DNA from: Bosea sp. RAC05
Lineage (GTDB): Bacteria; Pseudomonadota; Alphaproteobacteria; Rhizobiales; Beijerinckiaceae
Length of the DNA: 64,000 nucleotides
Direction: 5' to 3'
NCBI RefSeq assembly: GCF_001713455.1
Contig: NZ_CP016464.1
Span: 433,501-497,500 of the forward strand
Shown here piece by piece: positions 28,138 to 53,554 of the stretch. A program made the translations under genes and the position numbers. Position 1 is the stretch's first letter. Every line of letters starts with the position of its first letter. The notes beneath the pieces were generated by a model. The model made no database searches and was not told the origin of the DNA. It was given only the letters and a program-made list of their open reading frames with translations.

Positions 28138-28162
28138 GGAACCCTCGCCGCTCCCGAACGTT
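28138..28162 (+). promoter_or_regulatory. EcfG (general stress) promoter, ABC transporter gene
   Basis: GGAAC (28138-28142), N17, GTT (28160-28162). This is an exact match to the alphaproteobacterial EcfG form, with the ABC transporter start about 85 bp downstream. Confidence 0.75.
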
Positions 28163-28248
28163 AGCGAAGACCGCCTTGCGCCGGGCGCGGTGCGGGCGGG
28201 CCACGGCGTCGCCGCAGCCTTTACGCCCGTTTCCGAGAGATCGATCCC

Positions 28249-30057
28249 ATGTCAGACCAGCCGCGCCTTCCCAGGCGGTCGCGCATGCGCCGCTTCTTTG
28301 CCGCGGCGCTGCCGTTCTGGAGCGGCGAAACGAAGCTCCGCGCCTGGGTGCTGACGATCCTGGTCCTGTCCTTCGTCGCCGCCCAGATCGGCACGGCGGT
28401 GGCGGTGAACACCTGGAGCCGCATCTTCTTCGATGCGCTCGAGCGGCGCGACAGCGCCGCCGCCTGGCACATCGCGACCTGGCTGCCGCTGCTCGTGGCG
28501 GTGTCGGCACTGACCCTGTCGGCGCTGGTGATCAGCCGCATGCTGCTGCAGATGCGCTGGCGCGAATACCTGACCCGGCGCCTGGCGGGCTGGTGGATCG
28601 CCGACCAGCGCTATTACCGCCTGCAGTTCGTGGCCAAGGAACAGGCGGCGCCGGAATACCGCATCGCGGAGGATGTCAGGCTCGCCATCGAGCCGCTGGT
28701 CGAGTTTGCGATCGGGCTGATCAGTGCCGCCGTCACGGCGGCGACCTTCGCTGCGATCCTGTGGCATGTCGCGGGCTCGGCACGGTTCACCCTGGCCGGG
28801 ACGGAGATCGTCATTCCCAGCTATATGGCCCTGGCCGCGATCGGCTACGCCACCGTCGCCTCGCTGGCGGCCTATGTCGCGGGGCGGCCGCTGGTGGCCA
28901 GGATCGCCGCCAAGAACGAGGCGGAAGCTCAGTTTCGTGCCGAGATGACCCGTCTGCGCGAGAATGCCGAGAGCATCGCGCTGATCCGCGGCGACTCCGA
29001 CGAGCGCGACTCGGTCGGCGAGAATTACGGCCGAGTCGTCGCCGCCTGGCTGCGGGTGATCCGGCAGCAGGGGGTGATCGCGATCGTCCTGAACACCAAT
29101 GGCGCGCTGTTCCCGATCGTTCCGCTGCTGCTGATCGCGCCGAAATATCTGTCGGGAGACGTCTCCCTGGGGGCGGTGATGCAGGTGGTGGCCGCCTTCA
29201 GTGCGGTCCAGGCCGCGCTGATCTGGTTCGTCGACAACTTCGTGCGCCTCGCCGAATGGTTCGCCTCCGTCACCCGCGTCGACGAGCTCCAGGAAGCGCT
29301 GGAGGGTCTCGACATCGCCACCGTGATGGAGGACGAGACCCGCATCACCCTGAAGGAGAGCGAGGACGGCGCGATCCACCTCGAGCGGCTCTCGATCGCC
29401 CACAGCAACGGCCGGGCGGTGATCACCGACGCCTCCATCGTGATCGGGCTGGGCGAGAAGGTGCTGATCGTCGGAGAGAGCGGCACCGGCAAGAGCACGC
29501 TGATCCGCGCGCTCGCCGGCCTCTGGCCCTGGGGCTCGGGCTCCATCGCGGTGCCGCGCGGCAAGTCGATCGCCTTCGTGCCGCAGAAGCCCTATCTCCC
29601 GATGGGCGATCTGCGCACGATCCTGCTCTATCCCGAGGCCGACAAGCCGGTTCCCGACGAGATCGTCGTCGCGGCGCTGCGGCGCTGCGGGCTGGGCTAT
29701 CTCGCCCGCCGCCTCGACGACGAGGACAAATGGGACCGCACCCTCTCCGGCGGCGAGCGCCAGCGGGTCGCCTTCGCGCGGCTCGTCATCCGCAGGCCCG
29801 ACATCATCATCATGGACGAGGCGACGTCGGCCCTCGATGAGGACAGCCAGAACCATCTTCTCGGCCTGTTCGACGCGGAACTGGCGCAGGCGACGTTGAT
29901 CAGCGTCGGACATCGGCCGGGGCTGGAGGACTATCACGACCGCAAGATCACGCTCGAAAAGCGGCTGGCCGGCGCGCATCTCACCTCGCGCCGTCTCGGC
30001 AAGTCGCTGTGGCGGCTGTTCCGCAACCGCAACGCGGCCAATGACGCCACGGTCTGA
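28249..30057 (+). CDS. ABC transporter, fused permease-ATPase (SbmA/BacA-like membrane domain)
   Basis: 602 residues. The N-terminal membrane domain (ABC_membrane_2 type) has about six helices between residues 30 and 310 and the family segment WWIADQRYYRLQF. The ATPase has Walker A GESGTGKST near 409-417, signature LSGGERQR near 499-506 and Walker B DIIIMDEATSALDE near 516-529. It resembles the YddA/BacA-related exporters linked to very-long-chain lipid or peptide transport; the substrate is unknown. An exact EcfG promoter lies 85 bp upstream, so stress induction is expected. It is divergent from the Crp/Fnr gene. Confidence 0.92.
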   Translation: MSDQPRLPRRSRMRRFFAAALPFWSGETKLRAWVLTILVLSFVAAQIGTAVAVNTWSRIFFDALERRDSAAAWHIATWLPLLVAVSALTLSALVISRMLLQMRWREYLTRRLAGWWIADQRYYRLQFVAKEQAAPEYRIAEDVRLAIEPLVEFAIGLISAAVTAATFAAILWHVAGSARFTLAGTEIVIPSYMALAAIGYATVASLAAYVAGRPLVARIAAKNEAEAQFRAEMTRLRENAESIALIRGDSDERDSVGENYGRVVAAWLRVIRQQGVIAIVLNTNGALFPIVPLLLIAPKYLSGDVSLGAVMQVVAAFSAVQAALIWFVDNFVRLAEWFASVTRVDELQEALEGLDIATVMEDETRITLKESEDGAIHLERLSIAHSNGRAVITDASIVIGLGEKVLIVGESGTGKSTLIRALAGLWPWGSGSIAVPRGKSIAFVPQKPYLPMGDLRTILLYPEADKPVPDEIVVAALRRCGLGYLARRLDDEDKWDRTLSGGERQRVAFARLVIRRPDIIIMDEATSALDEDSQNHLLGLFDAELAQATLISVGHRPGLEDYHDRKITLEKRLAGAHLTSRRLGKSLWRLFRNRNAANDATV

Positions 30058-30112
30058 TCGCCGTCGCTCGCGCCGATGTGATGACGAAGTATCCGCCGCC
30101 GGGTGCCGAAAT

Positions 30113-30137
30113 GGAACCGGCCCGACCTCGCCGCGTT
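30113..30137 (+). promoter_or_regulatory. EcfG promoter, small membrane protein gene
   Basis: GGAAC (30113-30117), N17, GTT (30135-30137). It is about 50 bp upstream of the small gene at 30190. Confidence 0.75.
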
Positions 30138-30189
30138 AACAATCAGGAAGCCGGATGTTGTTGTCCGGTCGAGGCGTCGGGAGAGACAG

Positions 30190-30468
30190 ATGTTGAACAA
30201 CAGCTTTGCCCCCATCAAGCGCGCCGGCCTTTTCTTCGGATTCATGGGGGCCGCGGTCCTCGCCCTCACGCTCGGCTCCGGCTTTCAGGAGACCAACGTC
30301 AACAGTTTTGCGGCGATCGCGCAGGCCAGGCTCGACCGCCAGATGCCGTCCGGTGTTCGCCTCGCGGCGGCCGATCCCGCCCAGCGGACGGTCGGTGTGA
30401 CGAAGCGGGCCATCGGCGGCGCCCAGCAGGCGCTGGCGCCATCGGCCGATCGCACGGTTCTGCGCTGA
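30190..30468 (+). CDS. Small single-pass membrane or exported protein, stress-regulated
   Basis: 92 residues. ATG 30190 has GGGAGAG directly upstream; an earlier in-frame ATG at 30103 would place the start before the EcfG promoter, so it is rejected. Residues 13-34 (GLFFGFMGAAVLALTLGSGF) form one membrane segment or an uncleaved signal. The tail is Ala- and Gln-rich without known motifs. An exact EcfG promoter precedes it and a strong terminator follows 80 bp after the stop, which marks it as a single-gene stress transcript. Function unknown. Confidence 0.7.
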   Translation: MLNNSFAPIKRAGLFFGFMGAAVLALTLGSGFQETNVNSFAAIAQARLDRQMPSGVRLAAADPAQRTVGVTKRAIGGAQQALAPSADRTVLR

Positions 30469-30492
30469 CGTAAGGAAATCAGGGCTGCTGCG

Positions 30493-30517
30493 GGAACTCG
30501 CGCCGCCCTGCCGCGTT
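30493..30517 (+). promoter_or_regulatory. EcfG promoter-like match before a terminator
   Basis: GGAAC (30493-30497), N17, GTT (30515-30517). A transcript from here would meet the terminator at 30552-30577 within about 50 nt. It is either a chance match, a short RNA promoter, or a promoter for the transglutaminase gene with an attenuator. Confidence 0.45.
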
Positions 30518-30551
30518 TGATCACCGGCACTTCCCTCGTGTCTCACTCAAG

Positions 30552-30577
30552 AGCCGCCTTCGGGCGGCTTGTTTTTT
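30552..30577 (+). terminator. Rho-independent terminator
   Basis: The stem AGCCGCC (30552-30558) pairs with GGCGGCT (30563-30569) around a TTCG tetraloop, followed by TGTTTTTT. It ends the 92-aa gene transcript and lies 50 bp before the transglutaminase gene. Confidence 0.9.
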
Positions 30578-30627
30578 GGATCGGCAGACCGCTCCTGCAC
30601 GGGCGCAGGGCGCAGCAGGACGCGACG

Positions 30628-31506
30628 ATGTATCTCCGCATTCGACATTCGACGACCTACCGCTATGGCGGGCCGGTGGCGTTCGGGCCGCATCGCCTGA
30701 TGCTGCGACCGCGCGACAGCTTCGACCTGCGGGTCGTCGACACCGCCCTGACCATCTCGCCACGGGCCCGTCTGCGCTGGATGCACGACGCCTATGGCAA
30801 CTCCGTCGCCATCGCCAACTTCGACGCGCCCGCCAACAAGCTCGACATCGTCAGCGAGCTGGTCGTGCAGCGCTTCGGCTCTGCGTTGCCGCGAACCGAG
30901 CTCGAGGCGGCGGCCGCGATGACGGGGGTCGTCTACACCGATGGCGAGCGCGCCGTCCTGCAGCCTTATCTCGACCTCGCGGCGGCTGATCCCGACCATG
31001 TGCTCGACCAGTGGCTGGCGGATTTTCGCAACCGCATCGGGCAGGGCTCCGGCCACCTCCTGCGCGATCTCGCCCACGCCATCCATGCCGGGTTGAGCTA
31101 CGCCCTGCGCTATGACGAGGGAACCCAGCACCCTGCCGACACGCTGCGCCTCCAGGCGGGATCCTGCCGCGACTACGCCTGGCTGTTCATCGAGCTGGCC
31201 CGCCGCATGGGCTTCGCCGCGCGCTTCGTCACCGGCTACATCCACGACCGCACGCCCAACGCGGCCGGGCTGGTCTCCACCGTGGGCCTGACCCATGCCT
31301 GGGCCGATGTCTTCATCCCGGGCGATGGCTGGGTCGAATTCGATCCCACCAACGACCTCGTCGCGGACCGGCAGCTGCTGCGGGTGGCGGTGGCCCGCGT
31401 GCCGGAGGACGCCTCGCCCGTTGCGGGCAGTTTCACCGGCCTGACAGGGTCTTTCCTGGGCCTGGGCGTCGGCGTGACCATCGAGGCCATCGACGCCCCG
31501 GCCTGA
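30628..31506 (+). CDS. Transglutaminase-like cysteine peptidase family protein
   Basis: 292 residues, cytoplasmic (no signal). The N-terminal beta domain opens MYLRIRHSTTYRYGGPV, as in the bacterial transglutaminase N-terminal family. The catalytic triad is visible: Cys180 in GSCRDYAWL, His223 in THAWADVF and Asp239 in WVEFDPTN. ATG 30628 follows AGGA by 7 bases; a longer frame to 30517 crosses the terminator and is rejected. Such proteins are predicted peptidases or transglutaminases, sometimes linked to alpha-E/circularly permuted ATP-grasp genes, which are not present here. It is convergent with the kinase gene of the stress locus. Confidence 0.9.
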   Translation: MYLRIRHSTTYRYGGPVAFGPHRLMLRPRDSFDLRVVDTALTISPRARLRWMHDAYGNSVAIANFDAPANKLDIVSELVVQRFGSALPRTELEAAAAMTGVVYTDGERAVLQPYLDLAAADPDHVLDQWLADFRNRIGQGSGHLLRDLAHAIHAGLSYALRYDEGTQHPADTLRLQAGSCRDYAWLFIELARRMGFAARFVTGYIHDRTPNAAGLVSTVGLTHAWADVFIPGDGWVEFDPTNDLVADRQLLRVAVARVPEDASPVAGSFTGLTGSFLGLGVGVTIEAIDAPA

Positions 31507-31532
31507 ATTTCCGCAGGACGGTCGCCTTTCCC

Positions 31533-33185
31533 CTACGACACGTGCCGGATGCGCCAGCTCCCCAGCCGGCGGCCCTCGGGCTGAGCGGACTGGACCGCCT
31601 CGATCTGGGCCACCAGTCCGGCGAACATCTTCGGCGGCGCGCTCGGCGCGATGTCGCGGTCGGCTTCCAGCGCGACCTCGAGCGTCGTTTCGTCGATGTC
31701 GCGCACGATGATCGTCAGGCTGACCCCCGGCGTGCTCCTGAGGACCCGCGAGGCGACGTCGACCACGAGGAAGCCGAGCGGGATGATCCGATCGACGGAG
31801 AGGGTGGCATCGGTGTCGAGGCGGCTCGCGACCCATTGGTCGCGCGTCCGGATGAGGTTGGTGATCATCGTCACCACGTCCTCGACGAACAGGTCGACTC
31901 GGACCGGCTGCATCTCGCCGTCGGCGAGCGTGAAACGATAGGCCGCCGACAGCACATGGACCCGCGTTTCGGCGTCGGCCAGGGCGAGCCTGGCCTCGTC
32001 GCGGTAGTCCCGCTTGGTCAGCCCGATATAGCTCTGGACCACCTGGAGGCTGTTCTTCACGCGGTGGTGGAGCTCGCGCACCAGGAAGCGGTTGTCGTCG
32101 AGCGCCGTCTGCAGCCGCCGCTGGCGAACCTCCTGCTCGTCGATCATCGTGTTGAAGGCTTCGGCGACGCTGCGGATGTCGCTGGGCATGTCCGGTGCGA
32201 TGACGGCCCGCGCATGGGGCTCGGTCGAGCGGGCGCGCGCCGTGGCTTCGATGCCGCGCAGCCAGTGCACGCAATGGCGGTCGATCGCCCGCAGATAGAC
32301 GAGGCAGAGCAGGATCAGCGTCAGGATCGGCGCGATCAGCAGGGCGAGAAACTGCATCCGCGCGGCCCGTTCGGGGGCATTGCCGAAGCTCGCGACGACA
32401 TAGAGATCGGGCGCCGTCACCAGCCGCGCGGCGTAGGCGCGCATCTGGCCCCCGCGGCTGCGCGCCTCCCAGCGCCCGTCCTCGACCGGAAAGCGGTCGG
32501 CTTCCGGCAGCCAGGACAGATCGTCGGGATTGGGCTCGCGGCGATGCATGATCACGGCCTCGCCCCGCGAGACCAGTGCGACGTTGACGCCGTCGCTTGT
32601 GCCGCCGAGTTCGAAGACCTGGTCGAGCAGGTCTGGGTCGGCCAGGAGCATCGCCTCCCGCAGGGCCGCGTCGGTCTCCATGCGGACCTGGGTGACGAGC
32701 CGCTCGGCTCCGCCGATGTTGACCTGGTCGAAACGGGCCGGAGGAAGCTGGATCCGGGTGCGGGTGGGCGAGCGCGGCAGCGATGCCTGCTGGGCGGCCA
32801 GCGCGGCCACCGAAGCCTCTGTCAGCGCGGGATCGACCGAGGCGAAGCAGGTCCGGCCGTCGGCGAGGACAATCCGAACCGCCTGGTAGCCGGGAATGCG
32901 CAGCAGCGTCTCCGCAACCGCCGCTCCGCACTCCGCGCCGGCGATGCCGTCTTTGGCGATCAGCGACCCCGAGGCGACGAGCGCGCGCAGCGCCCCGCGG
33001 TGCCAGACCCGCGTCCGCACCGCGAAATCGTCAGCGGTGCGCGACTGCGAGAGTTCGATCGCCGCAACCACGGTCCGGTAGGTGGTCACGGCCGCCAGCG
33101 CCGTGAGGCAGGCAATCGGCAGCGCGATCGCCACGAGCAGGGCGAGCAGCCGTCCCCGGACCGTGGGGAAGCGCGCGAGACGCAT
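31533..33185 (-). CDS. Membrane HRxxN-type sensor histidine kinase of the PhyR/EcfG locus, degenerate ATPase domain
   Basis: 550 residues. Membrane segment 1 at 12-33, a periplasmic sensor (about 40-275), segment 2 at 279-298, a HAMP-like linker, then the dimerisation helix with RELHHRVKNSLQ (370-381). His374 of the HRxxN motif is the likely phospho-acceptor. The ATP-binding domain is eroded: the N-box Asn falls on Arg480 (IPLGFLVVDVASRV), the usual terminal His is Ser484, and no D-x-G-x-G is found. It is the last gene of nepR-ecfG-kinase, with an ATGA overlap with ecfG. Related locus proteins control PhyR phosphorylation; Sphingomonas PhyP is a negative regulator. A phosphatase role is therefore inferred. 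Confidence 0.88.
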   Translation of the reverse strand: MRLARFPTVRGRLLALLVAIALPIACLTALAAVTTYRTVVAAIELSQSRTADDFAVRTRVWHRGALRALVASGSLIAKDGIAGAECGAAVAETLLRIPGYQAVRIVLADGRTCFASVDPALTEASVAALAAQQASLPRSPTRTRIQLPPARFDQVNIGGAERLVTQVRMETDAALREAMLLADPDLLDQVFELGGTSDGVNVALVSRGEAVIMHRREPNPDDLSWLPEADRFPVEDGRWEARSRGGQMRAYAARLVTAPDLYVVASFGNAPERAARMQFLALLIAPILTLILLCLVYLRAIDRHCVHWLRGIEATARARSTEPHARAVIAPDMPSDIRSVAEAFNTMIDEQEVRQRRLQTALDDNRFLVRELHHRVKNSLQVVQSYIGLTKRDYRDEARLALADAETRVHVLSAAYRFTLADGEMQPVRVDLFVEDVVTMITNLIRTRDQWVASRLDTDATLSVDRIIPLGFLVVDVASRVLRSTPGVSLTIIVRDIDETTLEVALEADRDIAPSAPPKMFAGLVAQIEAVQSAQPEGRRLGSWRIRHVS

Positions 33186-33745
33186 CAGCTTCCGACGATT
33201 TCGCTACTGACCCTTTGGATCGCGGCCGCGCTTCGGCGGTCCGGCCCGAGATCGTCGAGGCTGCCGATCGACAGCAGTTCGGCGAGCTTCGTCCGCGCGC
33301 GGTTCACCCGGCTCTTGATCGTGCCGATGGCGACGCCGCAGATCTCGGCAGTCTCCTCATAGGATAGGCCGGTCGCACCGACCATGATGAGCACCTCGCG
33401 CTGCTCCTCCGGCAGCTTGGCCAGCGCCTTGCGGAAGTCGGCCAGGTCGAGATGGCTCTCCTGATTGCCATGCGTCGCCATGCGCTCGGCATAGGTGCCC
33501 TCGCTGTCCTGCACCTCGCGGCCGCGCTTGCGATAGAGCGAGTAGTAGGTGTTGCGCAGGATGGTGAAGAGCCAGGCGCGCAGGCTGGTTCCGGGCTCGA
33601 ACTTGTCGGAATTGCCCCAGGCCTTCAGCAGCGTGTCCTGGACGAGATCGTCGGCCAGCTGGATCGACCCCGACAGCGAGGCCGCAAAGGCGCGCAGATT
33701 GGGAATTTCCTTGATGAGGCCGTCCTTGAATTCAGTTGAGCTCAT
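33185..33745 (-). CDS. ecfG: General stress response sigma factor EcfG
   Basis: An ECF sigma factor (186 residues) that directs RNA polymerase to GGAAC-N16/17-GTT promoters during general stress. Region 2 is seen in ADDLVQDTLLKAWGNSDKFEPGTSLRAWLFTILRNTYYS, written across about residues 31-69. Region 4 is seen in LPEEQREVLIMVGATGLSYEETAEICGVAIGTIKSRVNRAR near 111-151. It overlaps nepR by 14 bp upstream and the kinase by 4 bp downstream, so the three are tightly coupled. It is held inactive by NepR until phosphorylated PhyR titrates NepR. Nine matching promoters lie within 13 kb. Confidence 0.95.
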   Translation of the reverse strand: MSSTEFKDGLIKEIPNLRAFAASLSGSIQLADDLVQDTLLKAWGNSDKFEPGTSLRAWLFTILRNTYYSLYRKRGREVQDSEGTYAERMATHGNQESHLDLADFRKALAKLPEEQREVLIMVGATGLSYEETAEICGVAIGTIKSRVNRARTKLAELLSIGSLDDLGPDRRSAAAIQRVSSEIVGS

Positions 33746-33956
33746 CGGTTGATGCTCCGGCAGCGCGACGTTCGGTTGCCTCGAGCTGAGCGAGCAGCAC
33801 CAGAAACTTGTCGGGTACGGGGGCGTTCACGATGTCGTCGTAATGCGCTTTGAGGGAGCGGCCGATCGATTCCTGCACGCGCGGATCGAGCATGACCTCG
33901 GCATCGGCGTCCGCGCCGTCCTCCGGCGCGGCCATGGCTGAATCGACATTGCTCAT
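33732..33956 (-). CDS. nepR: Anti-sigma factor NepR
   Basis: 74 residues. The conserved core LDPRVQESIGRSLKAHYDDIVNAPVPDKFLVLLAQLE matches the two-helix NepR fold that binds EcfG, or phosphorylated PhyR in exchange. The N-terminal 20 residues are acidic and disordered-looking. It is the first gene of the nepR-ecfG-kinase operon behind an exact EcfG promoter, so the system is autoregulated. The small size and position opposite phyR are diagnostic. Confidence 0.95.
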   Translation of the reverse strand: MSNVDSAMAAPEDGADADAEVMLDPRVQESIGRSLKAHYDDIVNAPVPDKFLVLLAQLEATERRAAGASTDELN

Positions 33957-34066
33957 CTCGGCCCTCGTGCGATGCGCGCGCCTGCTTTTCCAGCAAGTCG
34001 CGCCTATACGTCAACACCTCCGGCGGATGCCCCCAGATGGCGATTCCGACACGGATAGTCCCCTTA

Positions 34067-34091
34067 AACAGGCGATCTCACGAAAGGTTCC
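34067..34091 (-). promoter_or_regulatory. EcfG promoter of the nepR-ecfG-kinase operon
   Basis: On the minus strand, GGAAC (34091-34087), N17, GTT (34069-34067), followed by TAAG. The predicted start is about 100 nt before nepR. I see no matching site for phyR on the plus strand in the same intergenic region. Confidence 0.8.
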
Positions 34092-34170
34092 GCCGTTTTT
34101 CAAAAATAAATCGCTTGTCATCGCGACGGCGGCGGTGCTCATTTCCGGCACATTTACAGAGGACATCTCT

Positions 34171-34971
34171 ATGTCGATTGCCAAGGAAATTGCGCCGCAT
34201 CTGCCCTATCTGCGCCGATTCGCCCGCGCCTTGACCGGGACCCAGGCCAGCGGCGACGCCTATGTCGTCGCCATGCTCGAAGCGCTCGTGCTCGACCCGT
34301 CTGCTTTCCCGCGTGACCTCAATCCCCGCATCGGCCTCTACCGCACCTTCCTGACGCTGTGGTCGTCGGTCGGGCTCAATACGGCGGACCCGTCTGCGCC
34401 CGTCACCCTCGGCCGCACCGCCGTCGAGCGCAATCTCGAAGCGCTGACGCCGCGGCCGCGCCAGGCCTTCCTGCTGCGCACGGTCGAAGGCTTCTCGATC
34501 GAGGAGGTCGGGGCCATCATGGGCGTGGCCGCCGCCGAGGCGGCCGTCCTCGTCCAGACGGCGGGTCAGGAGATCGCGGAGCAGGTCGCGACCGACGTGC
34601 TGATCATCGAGGACGAGCCGATCATCGCGCTCGACATCGAGACCATGGTCGAGGAGCTCGGCCACACCGTCACCGGCGTCGCCCGAACGCAGCGCGAGGC
34701 GATCGCGCTCGTCGCCAAGAAGCGCCCCGGTCTCGTCCTGGCGGACATCCAGCTCGCCGACGGCAGCTCGGGACTCGACGCGGTCAACGAGATCCTCGCC
34801 ACCATCGACGTGCCGGTGATCTTCATTACCGCCTATCCGGAGCGCCTGCTCACCGGCGACCGGCCCGAGCCCGCCTTCCTGATCACCAAGCCCTTCCAGC
34901 CGGAAGCGGTGAAGGCCGCCATCAGCCAGGCCCTGTTCTTCGACCGTCGCGCCGGCCGCAAGGCGGCCTGA
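34171..34971 (+). CDS. phyR: General stress response anti-anti-sigma regulator PhyR
   Basis: 266 residues. The N-terminal sigma-like output domain (1-135) mimics EcfG regions 2 and 4 (LPYLRRFARALTGTQASGDAYV; PRPRQAFLLRTVEGFSIEEVGAIMGV). The C-terminal receiver (142-266) has IIEDEP, phospho-acceptor Asp192 in LVLADIQLADG, and the Lys of ITKPFQP. When phosphorylated, PhyR binds NepR and frees EcfG. ATG 34171 follows AGAGGA by 8 bases; longer frames run back through nepR and are rejected. It is divergent from the nepR operon. No EcfG promoter is seen in front of it, unlike many relatives. Confidence 0.96.
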   Translation: MSIAKEIAPHLPYLRRFARALTGTQASGDAYVVAMLEALVLDPSAFPRDLNPRIGLYRTFLTLWSSVGLNTADPSAPVTLGRTAVERNLEALTPRPRQAFLLRTVEGFSIEEVGAIMGVAAAEAAVLVQTAGQEIAEQVATDVLIIEDEPIIALDIETMVEELGHTVTGVARTQREAIALVAKKRPGLVLADIQLADGSSGLDAVNEILATIDVPVIFITAYPERLLTGDRPEPAFLITKPFQPEAVKAAISQALFFDRRAGRKAA

Positions 34972-35097
34972 CCACCCTCTCCGCCCCGTCTTCCAGCCCG
35001 CGGTGCCCCGGTGCCGCGGGCTTTTCCATGCCGAAGGCCCGCGCGACGCGCAGGCTGACGAGTGGCCCGTGGCCCCCGCCCCATCCGTCCATCGCGC

Positions 35098-35122
35098 GGA
35101 ACATCCCGTCCGGACCGGCGTT
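35098..35122 (+). promoter_or_regulatory. EcfG promoter, 54-aa protein and extensin-like gene
   Basis: GGAAC (35098-35102), N17, GTT (35120-35122). It is about 55 bp upstream of the small gene at 35178. Confidence 0.75.
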
Positions 35123-35177
35123 GCCCGCCCAGCGGACACCGGTCGGCCCGGTCGTCCACGAGACGGGAGGATGAGGC

Positions 35178-35342
35178 ATGGTGATGACCTGTATCGCCGC
35201 GATCATCGGCGCATCGTCGCTTAGCGTCGCGCTGTTCGGCGGCATCGTTCCCCTCGGCGCGACGGTCGAGGAGGTCCTGTCGCTCGCGCTCGCGGGAACG
35301 ACCGCGCTCGCCGTCGCGAGCGCCGCTGCGTTGGACATCTGA
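35178..35342 (+). CDS. 54-residue hydrophobic small protein, stress-regulated
   Basis: ATG 35178 is preceded by a strong GGGAGGATGAGGC site. The product begins MVMTCIAAIIGASSLSVALF and ends AVASAAALDI. It has two hydrophobic stretches (about 5-28 and 32-51) separated by TVEEV, so it is probably a membrane hairpin or helical bundle. An exact EcfG promoter precedes it. The stop codon touches the first possible codons of the extensin-like gene (TGATCATT), which suggests coupled translation. I do not recognise a family; coding status rests on ribosome site, promoter and context. Confidence 0.6.
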   Translation: MVMTCIAAIIGASSLSVALFGGIVPLGATVEEVLSLALAGTTALAVASAAALDI

Positions 35343-35344
35343 TC

Positions 35345-36103
35345 ATTTTTGCCGGTCGCAGCAGCAGCCTGCGCCGCCGCGCGGGGTTCGCGGTCCTCGG
35401 GCTGGCCATGAGCCTGGCTGCGGCCCAGGCACAGCAGCCGCGCCCCGTCCTGCCGCCGCCGCGACCATCCGACGTGGCGCCCGGTGCCGCGCCCGCCGAC
35501 AGCCGCCCGCCGGTGCCCGACCCTGCCGGTCCGCCCTCCTCCTGCGTCGCGGCGCTGACGGCTCGGCACGGTGCCGACCTGCGTGTGACGCCTCGTCCGG
35601 CGAGTCCCGACGGTGCCTGTCTCGTGGTCGACCCCGTCGAGATCGCGGCGCTCTCGGTGGGGGAAGGCCCCGGCCGCCGCCGCATCGAACTCCAGCCGCC
35701 GGCGATCCTCAGCTGCGAGATGGCGGGTGTGGTCGCGCAATGGCTGGAAACCACCGTCCAGCCCCTCGCCAAAGGCCATTTCGGCCGCGATCTGGTGGCT
35801 CTGCGGGTCGGCGGCGGGTATGAGTGCCGCCATCGCAACCGGGGCGCCGGGGGCCCCCTCAGCGAGCACGCCACGGGCCGAGCGCTCGACATCTTCGGCT
35901 TCGAGATCGGCGAGGCTCCGGCCCGGCTTTCGGTCTCCGTCACGCCTTCAGGGGATCATCAGGCTTTTCTGGCGGCGATCCGGCAATCCGCCTGCGGGGC
36001 TTTCGCCACGGCGCTGGGCCCGGGGTCCGACGCCGCGCATGCCGACCATCTCCATGTCGACATCAAGCCCCGTGGCTCGCCCGCCGGTCGCTTCTGTCAG
36101 TAG
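35345..36103 (+). CDS. Extensin-like C-terminal domain protein, exported
   Basis: The recognised part has the extensin-like fold found in many Hyphomicrobiales: CEMAGVVAQWLETTVQPLA, GGGYECRHRNRG, HATGRALDIFGFEI and HADHLHVDI, with a His/Asp pattern like D,D-peptidases, so a cell-wall role is inferred. The first ATG is at 35408, but the codons before it (LRRRAGFAVLGLA, then MSLAAAQA-QQ) complete a textbook signal peptide that the ATG would cut in half. No ATG, GTG or TTG exists between the in-frame TAG and 35408, so a rare start (ATT 35345, ATC 35342 or CTG 35339) coupled to the 54-aa gene is proposed. If not, the start is 35408. Confidence 0.75.
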   Translation: MFAGRSSSLRRRAGFAVLGLAMSLAAAQAQQPRPVLPPPRPSDVAPGAAPADSRPPVPDPAGPPSSCVAALTARHGADLRVTPRPASPDGACLVVDPVEIAALSVGEGPGRRRIELQPPAILSCEMAGVVAQWLETTVQPLAKGHFGRDLVALRVGGGYECRHRNRGAGGPLSEHATGRALDIFGFEIGEAPARLSVSVTPSGDHQAFLAAIRQSACGAFATALGPGSDAAHADHLHVDIKPRGSPAGRFCQ

Positions 36104-36378
36104 GCCTCCGCAACCGCGGCGGCGAGGTCCCTGGACTTTGTTGCGGCGAGCGCGCCGGGCGCCTGCGCCGGGCCGGGCCATGCGCCCGGGCGCGCCCGAC
36201 GGGCTGCGCCGGAACGCCGCGCCGCCAGGATGTCGAGTGCCAGCTCGCGCTCGAAGCCTTGCAAAATCAGGGATTCCAGCTCCCAGAACGGGGCCGCTGG
36301 CAAGGCTTCGCCGCCGAGGGAGACGACAAACGGCGGTGCCTGATCCTGACTCACGACTGACGGCCCTTCATGATTCAT
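36097..36378 (-). CDS. 93-residue protein of unknown function, stress-regulated
   Basis: A minus-strand frame with the conserved-looking core PPFVVSLGGEALPAAPFWELESLILQGFERELALDIL followed by an Arg/Ala/Pro-rich tail. No membrane segment. An exact EcfG promoter on the same strand ends at 36388, so the transcript would begin at about 36381-36379 and the ATG at 36378 would be essentially leaderless. A GTG at 36354 with GAAGGG upstream is the alternative start. The stop overlaps the end of the extensin-like gene tail to tail. No family recognised. Confidence 0.6.
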   Translation of the reverse strand: MNHEGPSVVSQDQAPPFVVSLGGEALPAAPFWELESLILQGFERELALDILAARRSGAARRARPGAWPGPAQAPGALAATKSRDLAAAVAEAY

Positions 36379-36387
36379 GGCAGATAC

Positions 36388-36412
36388 AACGCAGCAGAGA
36401 TTGACCCGTTCC
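36388..36412 (-). promoter_or_regulatory. EcfG promoter (minus strand) of the 93-aa gene
   Basis: On the minus strand, GGAAC (36412-36408), N17, GTT (36390-36388). It stands back to back with the plus-strand EcfG promoter, the two GGAAC elements being 9 bp apart. Confidence 0.75.
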
Positions 36413-36421
36413 AGCTTGCGC

Positions 36422-36446
36422 GGAACTGTGCCCTCGGTGGGGCGTT
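36422..36446 (+). promoter_or_regulatory. EcfG promoter of the DUF992 gene
   Basis: GGAAC (36422-36426), N17, GTT (36444-36446). The predicted start lies about 25 nt before the DUF992 ATG. Confidence 0.78.
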
Positions 36447-36477
36447 TGGTGGACACCTTCATGTCAGGAGCTTCCCG

Positions 36478-36981
36478 ATGATCACGCGGCCTTCGAAGCC
36501 GATCCTTGCTGCTATTGTCGCGGCAGCCGGCCTTCTGGTTTCCGGCTTGGCCGCATCCGCCCAGTCCGGATCGCCGGCGGGGCGCCTGAGGTGCAACGTC
36601 GGGGCCGGTCTTGGCCAAGTCGTCACCTCGCAGCGGCCGATGAACTGTACCTTCACGCCGCGCCGCGGGCCGGCGCAGCGCTATGTCGGCATCGTCCGCA
36701 ATTTCGGCATCGATCTCGGGAAGAACCGCGCCACCACGATGTCGTGGCGCGTCTACGGGCCCTATGCACGCGCTCCCCTGGGGGCGCTGTCGGGTCGCTA
36801 TGTCGGCGCGACGGCCGGAGCCTCTGTCGGGGTCGGCGGCAGCGCCAACCTGCTGGTCGGCGGCAACAACAACGAGGTCACCCTTCAGCCGCTGTCGCTT
36901 CAGGGTTCGCGCGGGATCAACGCGGCGCTCGGCGTGACCGGGTTCGAATTGTCGCTGGTCGAGCCGGGCCGGGGCCGTTGA
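36478..36981 (+). CDS. DUF992 family exported protein
   Basis: 167 residues from ATG 36478, which has AGGAG 7-8 bases upstream and gives a clean signal peptide (PILAAIVAAAGLLVSGLAASAQS). The frame opens earlier at 36370 but that would start before the EcfG promoter. The DUF992 pattern is clear: RLRCNVGAGLGQVVTSQRPMNC, YVGIVRNFGIDLG, SGRYVGATAGASVGVGGSANLLVGG and a final strand with FELSLV. The two Cys may form a disulfide. The family is confined mostly to Alphaproteobacteria and has no known function; here it sits under EcfG control. Confidence 0.88.
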   Translation: MITRPSKPILAAIVAAAGLLVSGLAASAQSGSPAGRLRCNVGAGLGQVVTSQRPMNCTFTPRRGPAQRYVGIVRNFGIDLGKNRATTMSWRVYGPYARAPLGALSGRYVGATAGASVGVGGSANLLVGGNNNEVTLQPLSLQGSRGINAALGVTGFELSLVEPGRGR

Positions 36982-37043
36982 CCCCGGGGCGACCATCCCG
37001 GGGAACCCGGCTCACCGCAGGGTGACGGTTTGCTAACCGTATC

Positions 37044-37069
37044 CGTTCAAATTGACGCGGATTTGAACG
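37044..37069. repeat. Perfect inverted repeat upstream of the response regulator
   Basis: CGTTCAAAT (37044-37052) and ATTTGAACG (37061-37069) form a perfect 9-bp inverted repeat around TGACGCGG. It lies 60 bp after the DUF992 stop and about 30 bp before the next EcfG promoter, with no T run. It could be an operator or an RNA hairpin. Confidence 0.6.
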
Positions 37070-37097
37070 ACGTCATGGGTGCCGGGGGCCGAAGTCC

Positions 37098-37122
37098 GGA
37101 ACATGGACAAGGCTCTGCCGTT
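37098..37122 (+). promoter_or_regulatory. EcfG promoter of the single-domain response regulator
   Basis: GGAAC (37098-37102), N17, GTT (37120-37122). It is 50 bp before the response-regulator ATG. Confidence 0.78.
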
Positions 37123-37171
37123 GTCCTCCCATGATCGTCAGTGTTCACAGAGTAAAGGAGGCGCGGGAGTC

Positions 37172-37543
37172 ATGACCGATATCCGCATCCTGATCGTCGA
37201 GGATGATCCGTTCATCGCGATGGACATCGAATCCGCCGTGGCCGAGCAGTTCGGCCCCGCCGCCGAATTGATCGTCGTCGACTCGGTTTCGCAGGCCCAG
37301 CGCGCGGCGACCGCGGCCGAACTGTCCTGCGCCCTGCTCGACATCGACGTCGTCGGCGGCAAGACCTTCGAGGTCGCCGCCAACCTGCTGCAGAGGGGTA
37401 CACCCTTCGCCTTCGTCTCGGGCTCGACGCCCGGCGACGTGCCGGAGCCGCTCCGCAACGTGCGCTTCCTGCGCAAGCCCTTCTCGACCCGCGACATCAC
37501 CAGCTTCGTCTCCGCCGCGGTGGCCCAGCCCGCCAAGGGCTGA
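37172..37543 (+). CDS. Single-domain response regulator, stress-regulated
   Basis: 123 residues, a receiver domain only. Acidic pocket VEDDP (Glu10-Asp12), phospho-acceptor Asp57 in CALLDIDVVGG, and the conserved Lys in FLRKPF. The segment TPFAFVSGSTPGDVPEPL resembles the PFxFATGY region of FATGUY-type receivers (SdrG, MrrA), which feed phosphate into the PhyR pathway of other Alphaproteobacteria. ATG 37172 has AAGGAGG and GGAG upstream; a longer frame from 37079 would include the EcfG promoter. It is a single gene with its own promoter and terminator. A role in the stress phosphorelay is inferred. Confidence 0.88.
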   Translation: MTDIRILIVEDDPFIAMDIESAVAEQFGPAAELIVVDSVSQAQRAATAAELSCALLDIDVVGGKTFEVAANLLQRGTPFAFVSGSTPGDVPEPLRNVRFLRKPFSTRDITSFVSAAVAQPAKG

Positions 37544-37572
37544 CGCACCGCGTCGACGAAGGGATGTTATCG

Positions 37573-37598
37573 AGCCGCCGGTTTCCGGCGGCTTTTTT
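37573..37598 (+). terminator. Rho-independent terminator of the response regulator
   Basis: The 9-bp stem AGCCGCCGG with CCGGCGGCT around TTT is followed by a T run (37593-37598). Confidence 0.93.
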
Positions 37599-37602
37599 CG
37601 TG

Positions 37603-38472
37603 TCAGCCCTGCCCGGGCACCAGCGCCAGCCGGTTGCCCCAGGGGTCGTCGATGGCGGCGCCCGTCGTGGTCTCGCGGCCCCCGGCCTCGAGCATGCGGC
37701 GGCGCATCATGGCCAGGTCGGTGGCGTCACGGGCGACGATTTCGAAGGCGGCGAGCCCCGCCTCGCCCGGCTGCCGCGGCCCGGCGCCACGGCTGCTCCA
37801 GACATTGCCGGCGATGTGATGGTGATAGCCGCCGCTCGCCAGGAAGCTGGCGCCGGGATAACGGACCATCAGCTCGAAGCCGAGCGCACCCGCATAGAAG
37901 GCCTCGGCCGCGGCGGTATCGCCGACACGCAGATGGATGTGCCCCATCCGGGTCCCCGCTGGCATGCCGGCATAGCGGCCGCCGCGCGCTTCGGCGAGGA
38001 GGGCCTGCAGATCGAGCCGCTCCGTCGCCATCCGGATCGCGCCGTCGCGCCGTGGCCAGTCGGCGCGCGGCCGGTCGCGATAGATCTCGATGCCGTTGCC
38101 TTCCGGGTCCGCCAGATAGAGCGCCTCGCTGACCAGGTGGTCGGAGGCGCCCTCGAGCGGCAGCCGGATCGCGGCGGCATGGGCGAGCCAGTCGGCGAGA
38201 TCGGCCCGCGCGGGCAGCAGGATGGCGAGATGGAACAGGCCGGCCGCCGAGGCCGGCCGGGTCGCGCCACGTTCGAGCCGCACGAGAACCTCGCCGTCGA
38301 TGCCGAGGTCCGATGCATCCGCGGTCTCGGCGATGACGCCAAGCCCGATGCTGTCGCGGTAGAACGCCGTGAGCCCAGGCAGGTCGGTCACGCGCAGCGT
38401 CACCGTGCCGATGTGGAAGGGGGCCTGTAACGCCTCCAGGGCGGGCCTCGACAGATCAGCGACCGCGGCCAT
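37603..38472 (-). CDS. Two-domain VOC family protein (glyoxalase / extradiol dioxygenase type)
   Basis: 289 residues from ATG 38472, preceded by GAGGAGA. Two vicinal-oxygen-chelate modules: FHIGTVTLRVTDLPGLTAFYRDSIGLG (N-terminal) and MGHIHLRVGDTAAAEAFYAGALGFEL (C-terminal). GGYHHHIAGNVW is typical of CatE-like 2,3-dioxygenase relatives. Likely a metal enzyme acting on a catechol-like or reactive small molecule; the substrate cannot be inferred. It is convergent with the response regulator, and lies 122 bp downstream of the FAD oxidoreductase gene on the same strand. No EcfG site is seen before it. Confidence 0.88.
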   Translation of the reverse strand: MAAVADLSRPALEALQAPFHIGTVTLRVTDLPGLTAFYRDSIGLGVIAETADASDLGIDGEVLVRLERGATRPASAAGLFHLAILLPARADLADWLAHAAAIRLPLEGASDHLVSEALYLADPEGNGIEIYRDRPRADWPRRDGAIRMATERLDLQALLAEARGGRYAGMPAGTRMGHIHLRVGDTAAAEAFYAGALGFELMVRYPGASFLASGGYHHHIAGNVWSSRGAGPRQPGEAGLAAFEIVARDATDLAMMRRRMLEAGGRETTTGAAIDDPWGNRLALVPGQG

Positions 38473-38594
38473 GGCCGTCTCCTCTTCGCTTTGCGGCCGG
38501 GATGCGCCGCCGGTGCAGAGATGGCGCTTGCGCCGCCGCTTGTCTCCAGTGCGGGCTGCAAGCATCGGATTGCAGCCCCGCAACCTGCCCCTTC

Positions 38595-39836
38595 TCAGCC
38601 GCGGGCCGGGTCGGCCCGGTCGATCGCGAAATGGCTGAACCAGGGGGCCTCGACCCCGCCGATCAGCGCCCCCATCAGACGCGAGGCGAGATAGCTGAAG
38701 GTGATGCCGTTGCCGCCATAGCCATAGGCCGCCACCAGCCGGGGATGGCCGGGAACGCGCCCGATCAGCGGCAGCCCGTCCTGTGTCTGGCCGAAGGCAC
38801 CCGACCAGGCATGCCCGAGGGTCGGCGCCGCTCCGGGCACCAGGGCCTGCAGCCTGGCGAGGAGCGCCGCCGTCTTCTGCGGCCCGGCCGCCTCGCGGTG
38901 GTCCGGATCGTCGTCATCCTCGTCCTCGCCGCCGATGATGATGCGCCCGTCGACCGTGGTGCGGCAGTAGACGTAATCCTCCGAGGCCTCCCAGACGAGG
39001 GCGGGGCCGGGCCAGAGCACCTCGCTCGCCTGCGGCAGCGTCGCGATCGCCCAGCTCGACGCGACCCGGTGCAGCTCGCTGTGCACGCAGTCGGGCATGA
39101 CATAGCCCGTCGCCAGCACCACATGGCTCGCCTCGATGGTGCGGCCGCAGCCGAGCGTCACCGCGGCGCTGCCGGCGGTGGAGTCGAACGCGACCGCCTC
39201 GCCGCGGATCAGCTTGGCGCCGCGCGTTGCCGCGACCTGCAAAAGGGCATGGCAGAGGCTGAGCGGGTCGCCCTCGGCGGAACCGGGTGAAACGATCGCG
39301 GCGGCCCGGTCGAAGCCGTAATGGCCGAGCAGCGTCGCATGGTCGAGCAGCTGTCCCGGCAGGCCGGCCCTGCTGCGCAGGGCGCATTCCTCTTGCAGCT
39401 CGCGCGGGCCGATGTCGCCGGCGGCGAGATAGACGGTGTCGCGCGGGTGGAAGGCGCTGCCGAGCCCGAGCGTGGCGACGCTCTCGATCAGCCCCTCCAC
39501 CGCCTTGAAGCTGCGCCGGTAGACATCGGCCGCCTTGTCGAAGCCGTAGAGCTCCGCGAGTCGGCGCAGCGGCAGGTCGATCTCCCATTGCAGCATCGCG
39601 GTGCTGGCGGCCGTGCTGCCGAAGCCCTCGCGCTCCCGGTCGACGATGATCACGTCATGGCCGAGGCCGGTCAGGTGTTCGGCCGCGAGCGCGCCGGTGA
39701 TGCCGCCGCCGATGATCGCGACGTCGCAGCGCGTGTCCGAATCGAGGCCGATGCTGGCCGGCCGGGGCGGCCCGGACAGCCAGGGGCTGGCCCCGCTGCG
39801 CAGGTCTTCGTGGCGTGTGCTGGCGGGGTCGAGCAT
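38595..39836 (-). CDS. FAD-dependent oxidoreductase (DAO / glycine-oxidase family)
   Basis: 413 residues. The dinucleotide-binding motif VAIIGGGITGALAAEHL (about 39-55) is followed by the acidic end of strand 2 (IIVDRE). Substrate-domain segments include STAMLQWEIDLPL and GRIIIGGEDEDDDD. The C-terminal FAD contact region is AYGYGGNGITFSYLAS. It oxidises an amine or amino acid with oxygen or a quinone as acceptor; similarity is to PuuB/DadA-like enzymes. It is upstream of the VOC gene on the same strand. Substrate unknown. Confidence 0.9.
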   Translation of the reverse strand: MLDPASTRHEDLRSGASPWLSGPPRPASIGLDSDTRCDVAIIGGGITGALAAEHLTGLGHDVIIVDREREGFGSTAASTAMLQWEIDLPLRRLAELYGFDKAADVYRRSFKAVEGLIESVATLGLGSAFHPRDTVYLAAGDIGPRELQEECALRSRAGLPGQLLDHATLLGHYGFDRAAAIVSPGSAEGDPLSLCHALLQVAATRGAKLIRGEAVAFDSTAGSAAVTLGCGRTIEASHVVLATGYVMPDCVHSELHRVASSWAIATLPQASEVLWPGPALVWEASEDYVYCRTTVDGRIIIGGEDEDDDDPDHREAAGPQKTAALLARLQALVPGAAPTLGHAWSGAFGQTQDGLPLIGRVPGHPRLVAAYGYGGNGITFSYLASRLMGALIGGVEAPWFSHFAIDRADPARG

Positions 39837-39907
39837 GGCGGGGTTCCGGTTCCGGAAGCGGCGCCGTGGCGACCGACCGTTGGGGCGGGGTGAAAGGGAG
39901 AGTCTGA

Positions 39908-40957
39908 CTAGCCGGCGGCGGGCGGCCCGATCCGGTCCGCCATCGTGGCGCCGCGATGTCCCAGCGGCTTGGGCCGGCCGGTCGTCGTGTCATGGGCCGT
40001 CTGGTGCTCGAGCTCCGCGTTGAACTCCGCGCCGGCGAGCACGATCATGGCCGAGAGCCAGAGCCAGGTCATGAACACCACCACCGTGGCGAGCGAGCCA
40101 TAGGTCGCCGTGTAGTTGCCGAGCGTGCCGACATACCAGGAGAAGGCCCAGGAGGCGCCGGCCCAGAGCAGAGCAGCGGCGACGGCGCCGGGCATGACCC
40201 AGACGAAGCGCGCCCGTTCCCGGCTCGGGCCGAGCCAATACAGCGCTGCGATGGCGAGCGTCGCCATCAGGAAGAAGGCGGGCCAGCGCACCAGCCGGAT
40301 CAACCGCTCCAGCTCGAAGGCGAAGGGAAACAGCGCCGTCACCACGGGCAGGCTGGCGATGGCGGTGAGCGCCGCCACCAGCAGCACGACGCCGCTGATC
40401 GTCGTCCCCAGCGAGATCAGGTTGAGCTTGATGAAGCTGCGCTTCTCCTGCTCGCGATAGATGATGTTGAGCGCATCGAAGACGGCCTTCACCGCCGCAT
40501 TGGCCGACCAGGCCGCGACCGCGAAGGAGATCAGGAAGGTCATCGACAGGACCTGCACGTCCTGCCCGGCGAGCCGCATCGCCTGTTCGTGGATGAGTTC
40601 GCGGGCCGCCTGCGGGAACACCGTCGTCACCACGTCGAGCTGCTCGGCGATCGTCGCGGGGTCGGTGAGGTAGCGGTAGATCGTCACCAGCAGCGAGAGC
40701 GCCGGCACCATCGACAGCAGCGTGAAGAAGGCCACCGCACCGGCGAGCGAACTGATCCGGTTGTCGGCGACATTGGCCGCGAAGCGCAGCATCACGTCCT
40801 TCCAGCCGAGCCAGGTCATCTGCCAGGGGGTCTGGGCCATGCGCCCGCGCGCGGCTTCGCGGCTGCGGCGCGACAGCCGGCGGGTCACCGCTTCGGCGAC
40901 ATAGCCGAGCGCGACGCCCGCACCGGCGGCACCCGTGATCCGTTTCAGAAGGGACAT
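39908..40957 (-). CDS. YihY/BrkB family inner-membrane protein, stress-regulated
   Basis: 349 residues from ATG 40957 (a longer frame to 40996 would start at the promoter). Six membrane helices between about 85 and 320, including SSLAGAVAFFTLLSMVPALSLLV, FLISFAVAAWSANAAVKAVFDALNIIY and TYGSLATVVVFMTWLWLSAMIVLAGAEFNAEL, all family hallmarks. The name of the family comes from a putative ribonuclease BN assignment that was later withdrawn; function is unknown, possibly transport. An exact EcfG promoter ends about 48 bp upstream, consistent with stress induction. Confidence 0.92.
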   Translation of the reverse strand: MSLLKRITGAAGAGVALGYVAEAVTRRLSRRSREAARGRMAQTPWQMTWLGWKDVMLRFAANVADNRISSLAGAVAFFTLLSMVPALSLLVTIYRYLTDPATIAEQLDVVTTVFPQAARELIHEQAMRLAGQDVQVLSMTFLISFAVAAWSANAAVKAVFDALNIIYREQEKRSFIKLNLISLGTTISGVVLLVAALTAIASLPVVTALFPFAFELERLIRLVRWPAFFLMATLAIAALYWLGPSRERARFVWVMPGAVAAALLWAGASWAFSWYVGTLGNYTATYGSLATVVVFMTWLWLSAMIVLAGAEFNAELEHQTAHDTTTGRPKPLGHRGATMADRIGPPAAG

Positions 40958-41004
40958 GCAGGACGCTCCACTGCCGCATCGTCGCAGCGGCAGCACCGCC
41001 TAGC

Positions 41005-41029
41005 AACGGCGCGCCCGCGCGAAGGTTCC
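41005..41029 (-). promoter_or_regulatory. EcfG promoter of the YihY/BrkB gene
   Basis: On the minus strand, GGAAC (41029-41025), N17, GTT (41007-41005). It is about 48 bp before the ATG at 40957. Confidence 0.78.
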
Positions 41030-52828: not shown

Positions 52829-53554
52829 ATGAACACGCACGCTGCCATTCCCGTTGCGACCCCTCCGCTTCAGCGGGAGGCCTTCGCGCATGTCGACCAC
52901 TGGGTGTTCGACCTCGACAACACGCTCTACTCGCATGAGTGCCAGGTCTGGCCGCAGGTCAATCAGCGGATCACCCTGTTCCTGCAGGAGCTGTTCGGCC
53001 TCGATGGCCTCTCCTCGCATGCCCTGCGGAACTACTATTACCATCGCTATGGCACGACCCTGAACGGCCTGATGGTCGAGCATGGCGTCGAGCCCGACGA
53101 TTTCCTCGACTTCGCCCATGACGTCGACCTCAGCCTGCTCGAGCCCGATCCGGCCCTGGGCGCGGCGATCGCGGCCCTGCCCGGCCGGAAGCTGATCCTG
53201 ACCAACGGGTCGGTCGCCCATGCCCGCAACGTCGCCGGCAAGCTCGGCATCATCGAGCATTTCGAGGATGTCTTCGACATCGTCGCGGCGGGCTTCACGC
53301 CCAAGCCGGAACGCTCGACCTATGAACTGTTCCTCGCCAAGCATGCCGTCGATCCCGGCCGCGCCGCGATGTTCGAGGACATCGAGAAGAACCTGCTGGT
53401 CCCCAGCGCCATGGGCATGAAGACGGTCCTGATCATCCCGCAGACGCCCGATCCGTTTCGCGAAGCCTGGGAGCAGGCGGCGGTCGAGGCCGGCCATGTC
53501 CACCATGTGACATCAGATCTGACGGGCTTCCTGACGCCACTGGCCCGCGGATAG
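52829..53554 (+). CDS. HAD-family pyrimidine 5'-nucleotidase
   Basis: 241 residues. HAD motif I FDLDNTLYS (Asp28, Asp30), motif II LTNGS, the Lys of FTPKPERSTYE, and motif III FEDIEKNLLVP. The SDT1/pyrimidine 5'-nucleotidase subgroup signature is the DNTLY motif with a helical cap. It dephosphorylates UMP/CMP-type nucleotides or modified ones. It is transcribed alone after the repeat element. The exact substrate is inferred from family only. Confidence 0.9.
   Translation: MNTHAAIPVATPPLQREAFAHVDHWVFDLDNTLYSHECQVWPQVNQRITLFLQELFGLDGLSSHALRNYYYHRYGTTLNGLMVEHGVEPDDFLDFAHDVDLSLLEPDPALGAAIAALPGRKLILTNGSVAHARNVAGKLGIIEHFEDVFDIVAAGFTPKPERSTYELFLAKHAVDPGRAAMFEDIEKNLLVPSAMGMKTVLIIPQTPDPFREAWEQAAVEAGHVHHVTSDLTGFLTPLARG

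Follow-up and report, generated by a model that had tools for sequence, protein, structure and literature searches.

Why do nine matches to a single stress-promoter motif crowd into 13 kb around the genes that control the stress response itself? We addressed this question in a 64-kb window of the genome of Bosea sp. RAC05 (5,620,120 bases in two contigs; contig NZ_CP016464.1, C2:433501-497500), which holds the phyR–nepR–ecfG locus of the general stress response (GSR). On stress, phosphorylated PhyR binds the anti-sigma factor NepR, and the sigma factor EcfG is freed and starts transcription at promoters of the form GGAAC-N17-GTT. An initial annotation of the sequence had proposed that nine such promoters in this region define a physically linked EcfG regulon. 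Our analysis indicates that the region is probably a core GSR locus doubling as a regulon island, and that one of the nine promoters most likely serves a predicted small RNA.

The core of the locus consists of four genes:

34171..34971, plus strand: phyR (Pfam PF22029, PF22233 and PF00072)
33732..33956, minus strand: nepR, anti-sigma factor (Pfam PF18557 NepR, 6e-14)
33185..33745, minus strand: ecfG, sigma factor (Pfam Sigma70_r2/r4 and PhyR_sigma2)
31533..33185, minus strand: HisKA_2/HWE histidine kinase (Pfam PF07568 and PF07536)

By Pfam, PhyR combines sigma-like and receiver domains, and genes for NepR and a sigma factor are adjacent. This PhyR is the sole PhyR sigma-like match in the genome, and its nearest named records are from Bosea, with 98% identity at best. 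We named the sigma factor EcfG because its gene adjoins nepR and phyR. The genes nepR, ecfG and the kinase gene form a leftward row behind a motif site at 34067, and phyR runs rightward from 34171. Gene set, divergent arrangement and an HWE/HisKA_2 kinase beside ecfG are those of alphaproteobacterial phyR–nepR–ecfG loci, as is an EcfG promoter before nepR–ecfG. Unlike known GSR loci, the Bosea locus has no EcfG site at phyR itself and has eight more EcfG-type promoters less than 7 kb away from this gene.

The window contains exactly nine exact matches to GGAAC-N17-GTT, each at the position and on the strand originally reported, and no others:

28138..28162, plus strand: EcfG-type promoter of an ABC transporter gene, exact motif, GTT 86 bp before the start
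30113..30137, plus strand: EcfG-type promoter of the small-protein gene sp92, exact motif, GTT 52 bp before the start
30493..30517, plus strand: EcfG-type promoter of a predicted small RNA, exact motif
34067..34091, minus strand: EcfG-type promoter of nepR–ecfG(–kinase), exact motif, GTT 110 bp before nepR
35098..35122, plus strand: EcfG-type promoter of the small-protein gene sp54 and probably also of an extensin-like gene, exact motif, 55 bp before sp54
36388..36412, minus strand: EcfG-type promoter of the small gene spM, exact motif, 33 bp before the start (9 bp to an upstream ATG)
36422..36446, plus strand: EcfG-type promoter of a DUF992 gene, exact motif, GTT 31 bp before the start
37098..37122, plus strand: EcfG-type promoter of a receiver gene, exact motif, GTT 49 bp before the start
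41005..41029, minus strand: EcfG-type promoter of yihY, exact motif, 47 bp before the start (8 bp to an upstream GTG)

Distances run from the end of GTT to the start codon judged most likely. Eight of the sites had been placed 10–105 bp before a gene, which is close but inexact: we measured 31–110 bp, with alternative starts at 8–9 bp. In 100 shuffles of the window the mean count was 0.53 and the largest 2, none reaching nine. Genome-wide, we counted 112 exact matches vs 84 matches to the reversed pattern that served as control (5.62 Mb), a noisy excess of about 28, of which about one third lies inside the 13-kb segment. From the 112 genome sites 0.26 would be predicted in this segment, and nine are present (Poisson tail 1e-11). 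The form with C before GTT, found at 8/9 island sites, occurs 49 times in the genome vs 30 times in the control; 8/49 of these fall in the segment and at most 2 in any other stretch of equal length, so the possibility that the motif is equally dense across the genome, raised alongside the proposal itself, does not hold, and the island is the densest cluster in the genome. Outside the island, by hand count, 9/41 CGTT sites have, no more than 160 bp away, an ATG accompanied by a Shine–Dalgarno-like word and a frame that looks coding. The shorter spacing, GGAAC-N16-GTT, is not enriched genome-wide (19 vs 32 in the control) and stands at background level in the phyR loci too; other spacings (15–19) were examined in the window only. 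At 53308-53333 of the window there is also an overlapping palindromic GGAAC-N16-GTTCC match on both strands, probably within coding DNA.

Comparison with other genomes covered the best 80 of 427 confirmed phyR stretches, each taken with up to 10 kb per side. Together with the window (1.52 Mb), these loci hold 457 exact sites vs 58 reversed-pattern matches. Forty-one sequences with ecfG at least 87% identical, the window among them, are here called the Bosea clade, and the remainder of the 81 the other 40 sequences. A promoter was scored in the Bosea clade when an exact site fell between 260 bp upstream of a gene and 60 bp inside it, with denominators giving the sequences where tblastn located the gene with enough flank. 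By this measure exact sites precede nepR in 40/41 sequences, sp54 in 21/22, spM in 28/32, the DUF992 gene in 32/40 (one mismatch in 7 more), sp92 in 28/40, the receiver gene in 25/41, the ABC transporter gene in 19/33, a transglutaminase-like gene in 16/32 (one mismatch in 12 more) and yihY in 5/6. Sixty permuted motifs yielded 0–1.2%. Genes of the same loci to which no EcfG-type site had been assigned served as negative controls: exact sites were absent before GGDEF (0/23), ecfG (0/41), phyR (0/41), extensin-like (0/37), VOC (0/7), DAO (0/5) and OMP (0/6) genes, and few were found before methyltransferase (1/40), CRP-like (3/37) and kinase (1/41) genes. The motif match and this conservation support the reading of the nine sites as EcfG regulon promoters, and the proposal of a physically linked regulon gains support, at the level of sequence, from both the genome-wide density and the promoter-by-promoter comparison with controls inside the locus.

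The position of the cluster differs between the two groups of loci. In the Bosea clade, site density peaks 0.8–2.8 kb after the phyR start (13.2 vs 0.6 per 10 kb) and is down to background past about 8 kb; the bin from −8 to −6 kb has a high control count as well (15 vs 21 sites). In the other 40 sequences the peak lies within 2 kb before phyR, density is near the control level 2.8–4.8 kb after it, and the excess over control extends out to −10 kb. A site starting 62–105 bp before phyR is present in 30 of these other sequences and in none of the Bosea clade, where, as in the interval 34092-34170 of the window, no EcfG-type site precedes phyR. The Bosea-clade phyR thus seems to lie outside EcfG feedback. 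The back-to-back site pair at 36388/36422 recurs in 25/41 Bosea-clade sequences, and six loci (L070, L072, L074 and L084-L086) have a divergent pair with wider spacing, also after phyR, that serves other genes; on its minus side in L070, L072 and L074 is a 55-aa membrane protein.

The site at 30493 differs from the other eight in having no protein gene directly behind it. Its GTT is followed by 33 nt and then a terminator, and only afterwards, 110 bp from GTT, by the transglutaminase-like gene:

30524..30577, plus strand: predicted 54-nt small RNA with a predicted start site, a UUCCCUC-loop hairpin plus intrinsic terminator (fold and covariation)
30551..30577, plus strand: intrinsic terminator of the predicted small RNA, 8 pairs and then GTTTTTT

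The initial annotation had the motif position right but missed the strong terminator behind it; the site most likely serves the small RNA and not a protein gene. This predicted 54-nt GsrN-like RNA is the new element in our reading of the locus. Its folding energy is −20.6 kcal/mol (z −3.1), with z from −3.6 to −5.8 in four relatives. A scan for promoter plus terminator placed the terminator 33–34 nt after GTT, and across much of the genus the same unit recurs: promoter, C-rich-loop hairpin, short spacer, terminator. Hairpin and terminator fold singly in 19/20 aligned copies, the exception being L032, with a broken terminator pair. Covariation was assessed in a covariance-model alignment that comprises 23 copies, 20 from the training set of the model, and leans toward the structure. 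In helix 1, 4/5 pairs show changes on both sides, 95.3% of cells are paired vs 34–59% in slid versions, and the covariation score exceeds all 500 shuffles. Among 29 distinct units, identity is 0.58 in the RNA body, 0.35 in the promoter spacer, 0.27 in upstream DNA and 0.25 in downstream DNA, and CCTC occurs in 28/29 bodies. Promoter and terminator are conserved here by choice because units were picked for having both; the body was not so picked. The RNA at 30524-30577 has no Rfam family.

The covariance model was run on 64 of the 80 loci (L095-L110 left out) and on the window; 23 Bosea-clade sequences reached 31 bits or more, 20 of which formed the training set. Across the genus, 33/67 genomes, that of the window included, match the model at E ≤1e-5, the window genome with one strong copy. 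The model does not contain the promoter, and 29/30 best genus copies have GGAAC-N17-GTT or -ATT 32–38 nt before the terminator stem (exception, L180). Many of these matches come from the same species as training loci; among 28 parsed copies, 7 sequences that have the promoter are new (L152, L153, L159, L162, L172, L174 and L179). The RNA is similarly placed near the GSR core in other Bosea loci. A longer, similar unit stands at the same place in Phreatobacter loci L065, L066 and L069, and a Bosea subgroup (L042, L047, L052, L057-L059, L063, L064 and L082) has kept terminator and GTA −10 but lost the C-rich hairpin. The model, R1, was dropped for detection across the family: the one lower match inspected, L112 (31.9 bits), turned out to be BjrC1505, an alphaproteobacterial small RNA, and for that reason a family tally of 69/149 is not used as a count of the small RNA.

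GsrN, a SigT-dependent small RNA, is about 100 nt long, has a stable 5′ isoform of 51–54 nt and pairs with the katG leader through a loop of six C (PMC5869019). Relatives have been predicted in Rhizobium, Sinorhizobium, Brucella, Agrobacterium, Rhodopseudomonas and Bradyrhizobium, in most cases because they lie close to the GSR locus and have an EcfG site, and some are backed by expression data; the main text of that study does not include Bosea (PMC5869019). The predicted Bosea RNA shares with GsrN an EcfG/SigT-type promoter, an intergenic position, a C-rich 5′ loop and an intrinsic terminator, and, like most predicted relatives, lies near GSR core genes (3.7 kb from phyR). It differs in its predicted full length, about 54 nt vs about 100 nt, and in its UUCCCUC loop, which lacks the six C in a row. 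By analogy, it may work like GsrN; homology to GsrN is not detectable in the sequence, and we do not file it as a homologue. The promoter-plus-terminator scan yielded RNAs with a run of seven C at 6/16 loci of Brevundimonas and its kin (L095-L110); the one scanned against Rfam, that of Brevundimonas L101, is CC3552 (RF01529, 103 bits). CC3552 is probably the same RNA as GsrN, an equation based on its length of 106 nt and its promoter. Two Kiloniellaceae-type loci (L080 and L081, offset 2104, minus strand) show an EcfG site, a stretch of about 105 nt with a CCCCC run, and a terminator; in L080 a CsbD-like gene, named by eye, comes after it, which repeats the order of promoter, putative RNA, terminator and gene.

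The other genes of the island are as follows:

28249..30057, plus strand: SbmA/ABC_membrane_2-type ABC transporter (Pfam PF06472, PF00005 and PF05992)
30190..30468, plus strand: sp92, 92-aa small protein with tblastn homologues in Bosea loci
30628..31506, plus strand: transglutaminase-like protein (Pfam PF08379 and PF01841)
35178..35342, plus strand: sp54, 54-aa hydrophobic small protein behind site 35098
35408..36103 (start may be upstream), plus strand: extensin-like C-terminal domain protein (PF06904)
36097..36354, minus strand: spM, 85-aa small protein behind site 36388
36478..36981, plus strand: DUF992 protein (PF06186, 2e-44 in an overlapping longer frame, 36370-36981)
37172..37543, plus strand: single-domain response regulator (receiver; best solved relative SdrG, PDB 5ieb, 7.6e-10)
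39908..40957, minus strand: YihY/BrkB family membrane protein (PF03631 and TIGR00765)

Downstream of site 35098, sp54 is followed by the extensin-like gene. The products of sp92, sp54 and spM, all behind conserved EcfG-type promoters, have no Pfam or NCBIfam family match. The receiver at 37172 resembles SdrG-type GSR regulators in lying near phyR, in its EcfG-type promoter and in having SdrG as best solved relative, but the similarity is modest (42 bits), and a role in phosphotransfer is putative.

Several results weigh against a regulon island with a GsrN-like RNA. No exact site precedes the ABC, sp92 and receiver genes in 14/33, 12/40 and 16/41 sequences, and in 34/67 genus genomes the small-RNA model finds nothing at E 1e-5. 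In weak controls, 35/500 shuffles reach the count of pairs changed on both sides and 213/500 reach the number of pair types. A duplex of the RNA with the katG leader is equalled by 18% of shuffles, duplex energies with 14 leaders of the locus are unremarkable (the best, with the receiver leader, is reached by 3.5% of shuffles, uncorrected), and RF01529 is not among the Rfam matches of the RNA up to E 5. Finally, each of the 23 Bosea-clade matches that reach 31 bits stands directly before the transglutaminase-like gene, as a leader would, with 15–57 nt from T run to gene in the 21 measured. The promoter at 30493 might accordingly belong to that gene, with the hairpin and terminator acting as a leader attenuator or a leaky terminator; seven loci without the gene (L056, L060, L061, L062, L087, L088 and L092) also lack a model match, and the nine loci that have lost the C-rich hairpin keep the terminator and GTA −10. 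We nevertheless regard a leader as rather unlikely. The terminator is strong, with 8 pairs and six T; the single folds of 19/20 copies show no competition between it and helix 1, so no switch is visible; DNA past the terminator is unconserved (0.25) while the hairpin body is conserved (0.58); and gene and element come apart in L045, which has the gene without such an element, and in L042, which has a degenerate unit without the gene. It is more doubtful still that the RNA is a shortened, EcfG-controlled relative of BjrC1505 instead of a GsrN counterpart. The second-best R1 match in the window genome is a BjrC1505 copy (31.9 bits; RF02356, 83.5 bits) with a C-rich stretch and then the same kind of GAGCCGCC...GGCGGC terminator, but BjrC1505 is a 140-nt model against which the small RNA scores only 11.9 bits (cut-off 50), the match could stem from nothing more than a GC-rich terminator common to both, and no EcfG-type site was seen in the stretch inspected around the copy. 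This copy lies at L112 1500-1636 (minus strand; C2 near 4,360,000), and its 3′ part resembles the small RNA.

For the nine sites as a set, the alternative of most substance is that the promoters are real and their clustering a passive relic of gene order without regulatory meaning. Gene order is kept in many Bosea-clade loci, so common descent is enough to account for much of the pattern they share, and we give this account a substantial, if minority, chance. Against it, the sites around phyR belong to different genes in the other loci inspected: in 11 loci, with names given by eye, they precede genes for CsbD-like, PRC-barrel-like and small membrane proteins, suggesting that EcfG targets may have collected near phyR more than once. 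GGAAC-like −35 elements are common to ECF sigma factors, and a CGTT-form site does lie upstream of a gene (L140) that by eye resembles another ECF sigma factor; even so, it is very improbable that such a factor, and not EcfG, reads the nine sites. The site cluster follows phyR across the 80 loci and the window, and motif and spacing match the Sphingomonas EcfG motif, published as GGAAC-N17-20-GTT (PMC6599016). Chance or base composition has next to no probability as an explanation: the genome background is high, with its 84 reversed matches, but no shuffle reaches nine and the sites are conserved across the Bosea clade.

Under the favoured reading of a core locus doubling as a regulon island, EcfG would act at some nine promoters in the 13 kb that surround its gene. 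Of these, one would drive nepR–ecfG and probably the kinase gene too, and an EcfG promoter at this position would give positive feedback with a built-in brake, phyR being left outside the feedback in the Bosea clade. Seven would drive the ABC transporter, the YihY-type membrane protein, the DUF992 protein, the small proteins and the SdrG-like receiver. The promoter at 30493 would drive the terminated 54-nt RNA, whose 5′ hairpin would present the UUCCCUC loop and probably base-pair with G-rich stretches of mRNA in the manner of GsrN. More tentatively, and with more doubt than confidence in the combination, the locus may be a self-contained stress island whose sigma factor largely controls its neighbours, and the 54-nt RNA may be a stand-alone equivalent of the GsrN 5′ isoform that arose separately, by a terminator placed directly behind the seed hairpin.

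In a literature search that covered few subscription journals, we found neither a Bosea GSR locus nor this small RNA described. For a genus in which we found no GSR study, a motif observation becomes a list of nine candidate EcfG targets, together with a candidate for a very small GsrN-like RNA that has a defined promoter, structure and terminator and is present in roughly half of the genomes searched within the genus. Should it prove real, it would help with two questions: whether the alphaproteobacterial stress response generally includes a C-rich small RNA, and why EcfG targets gather around the gene of their own sigma factor.

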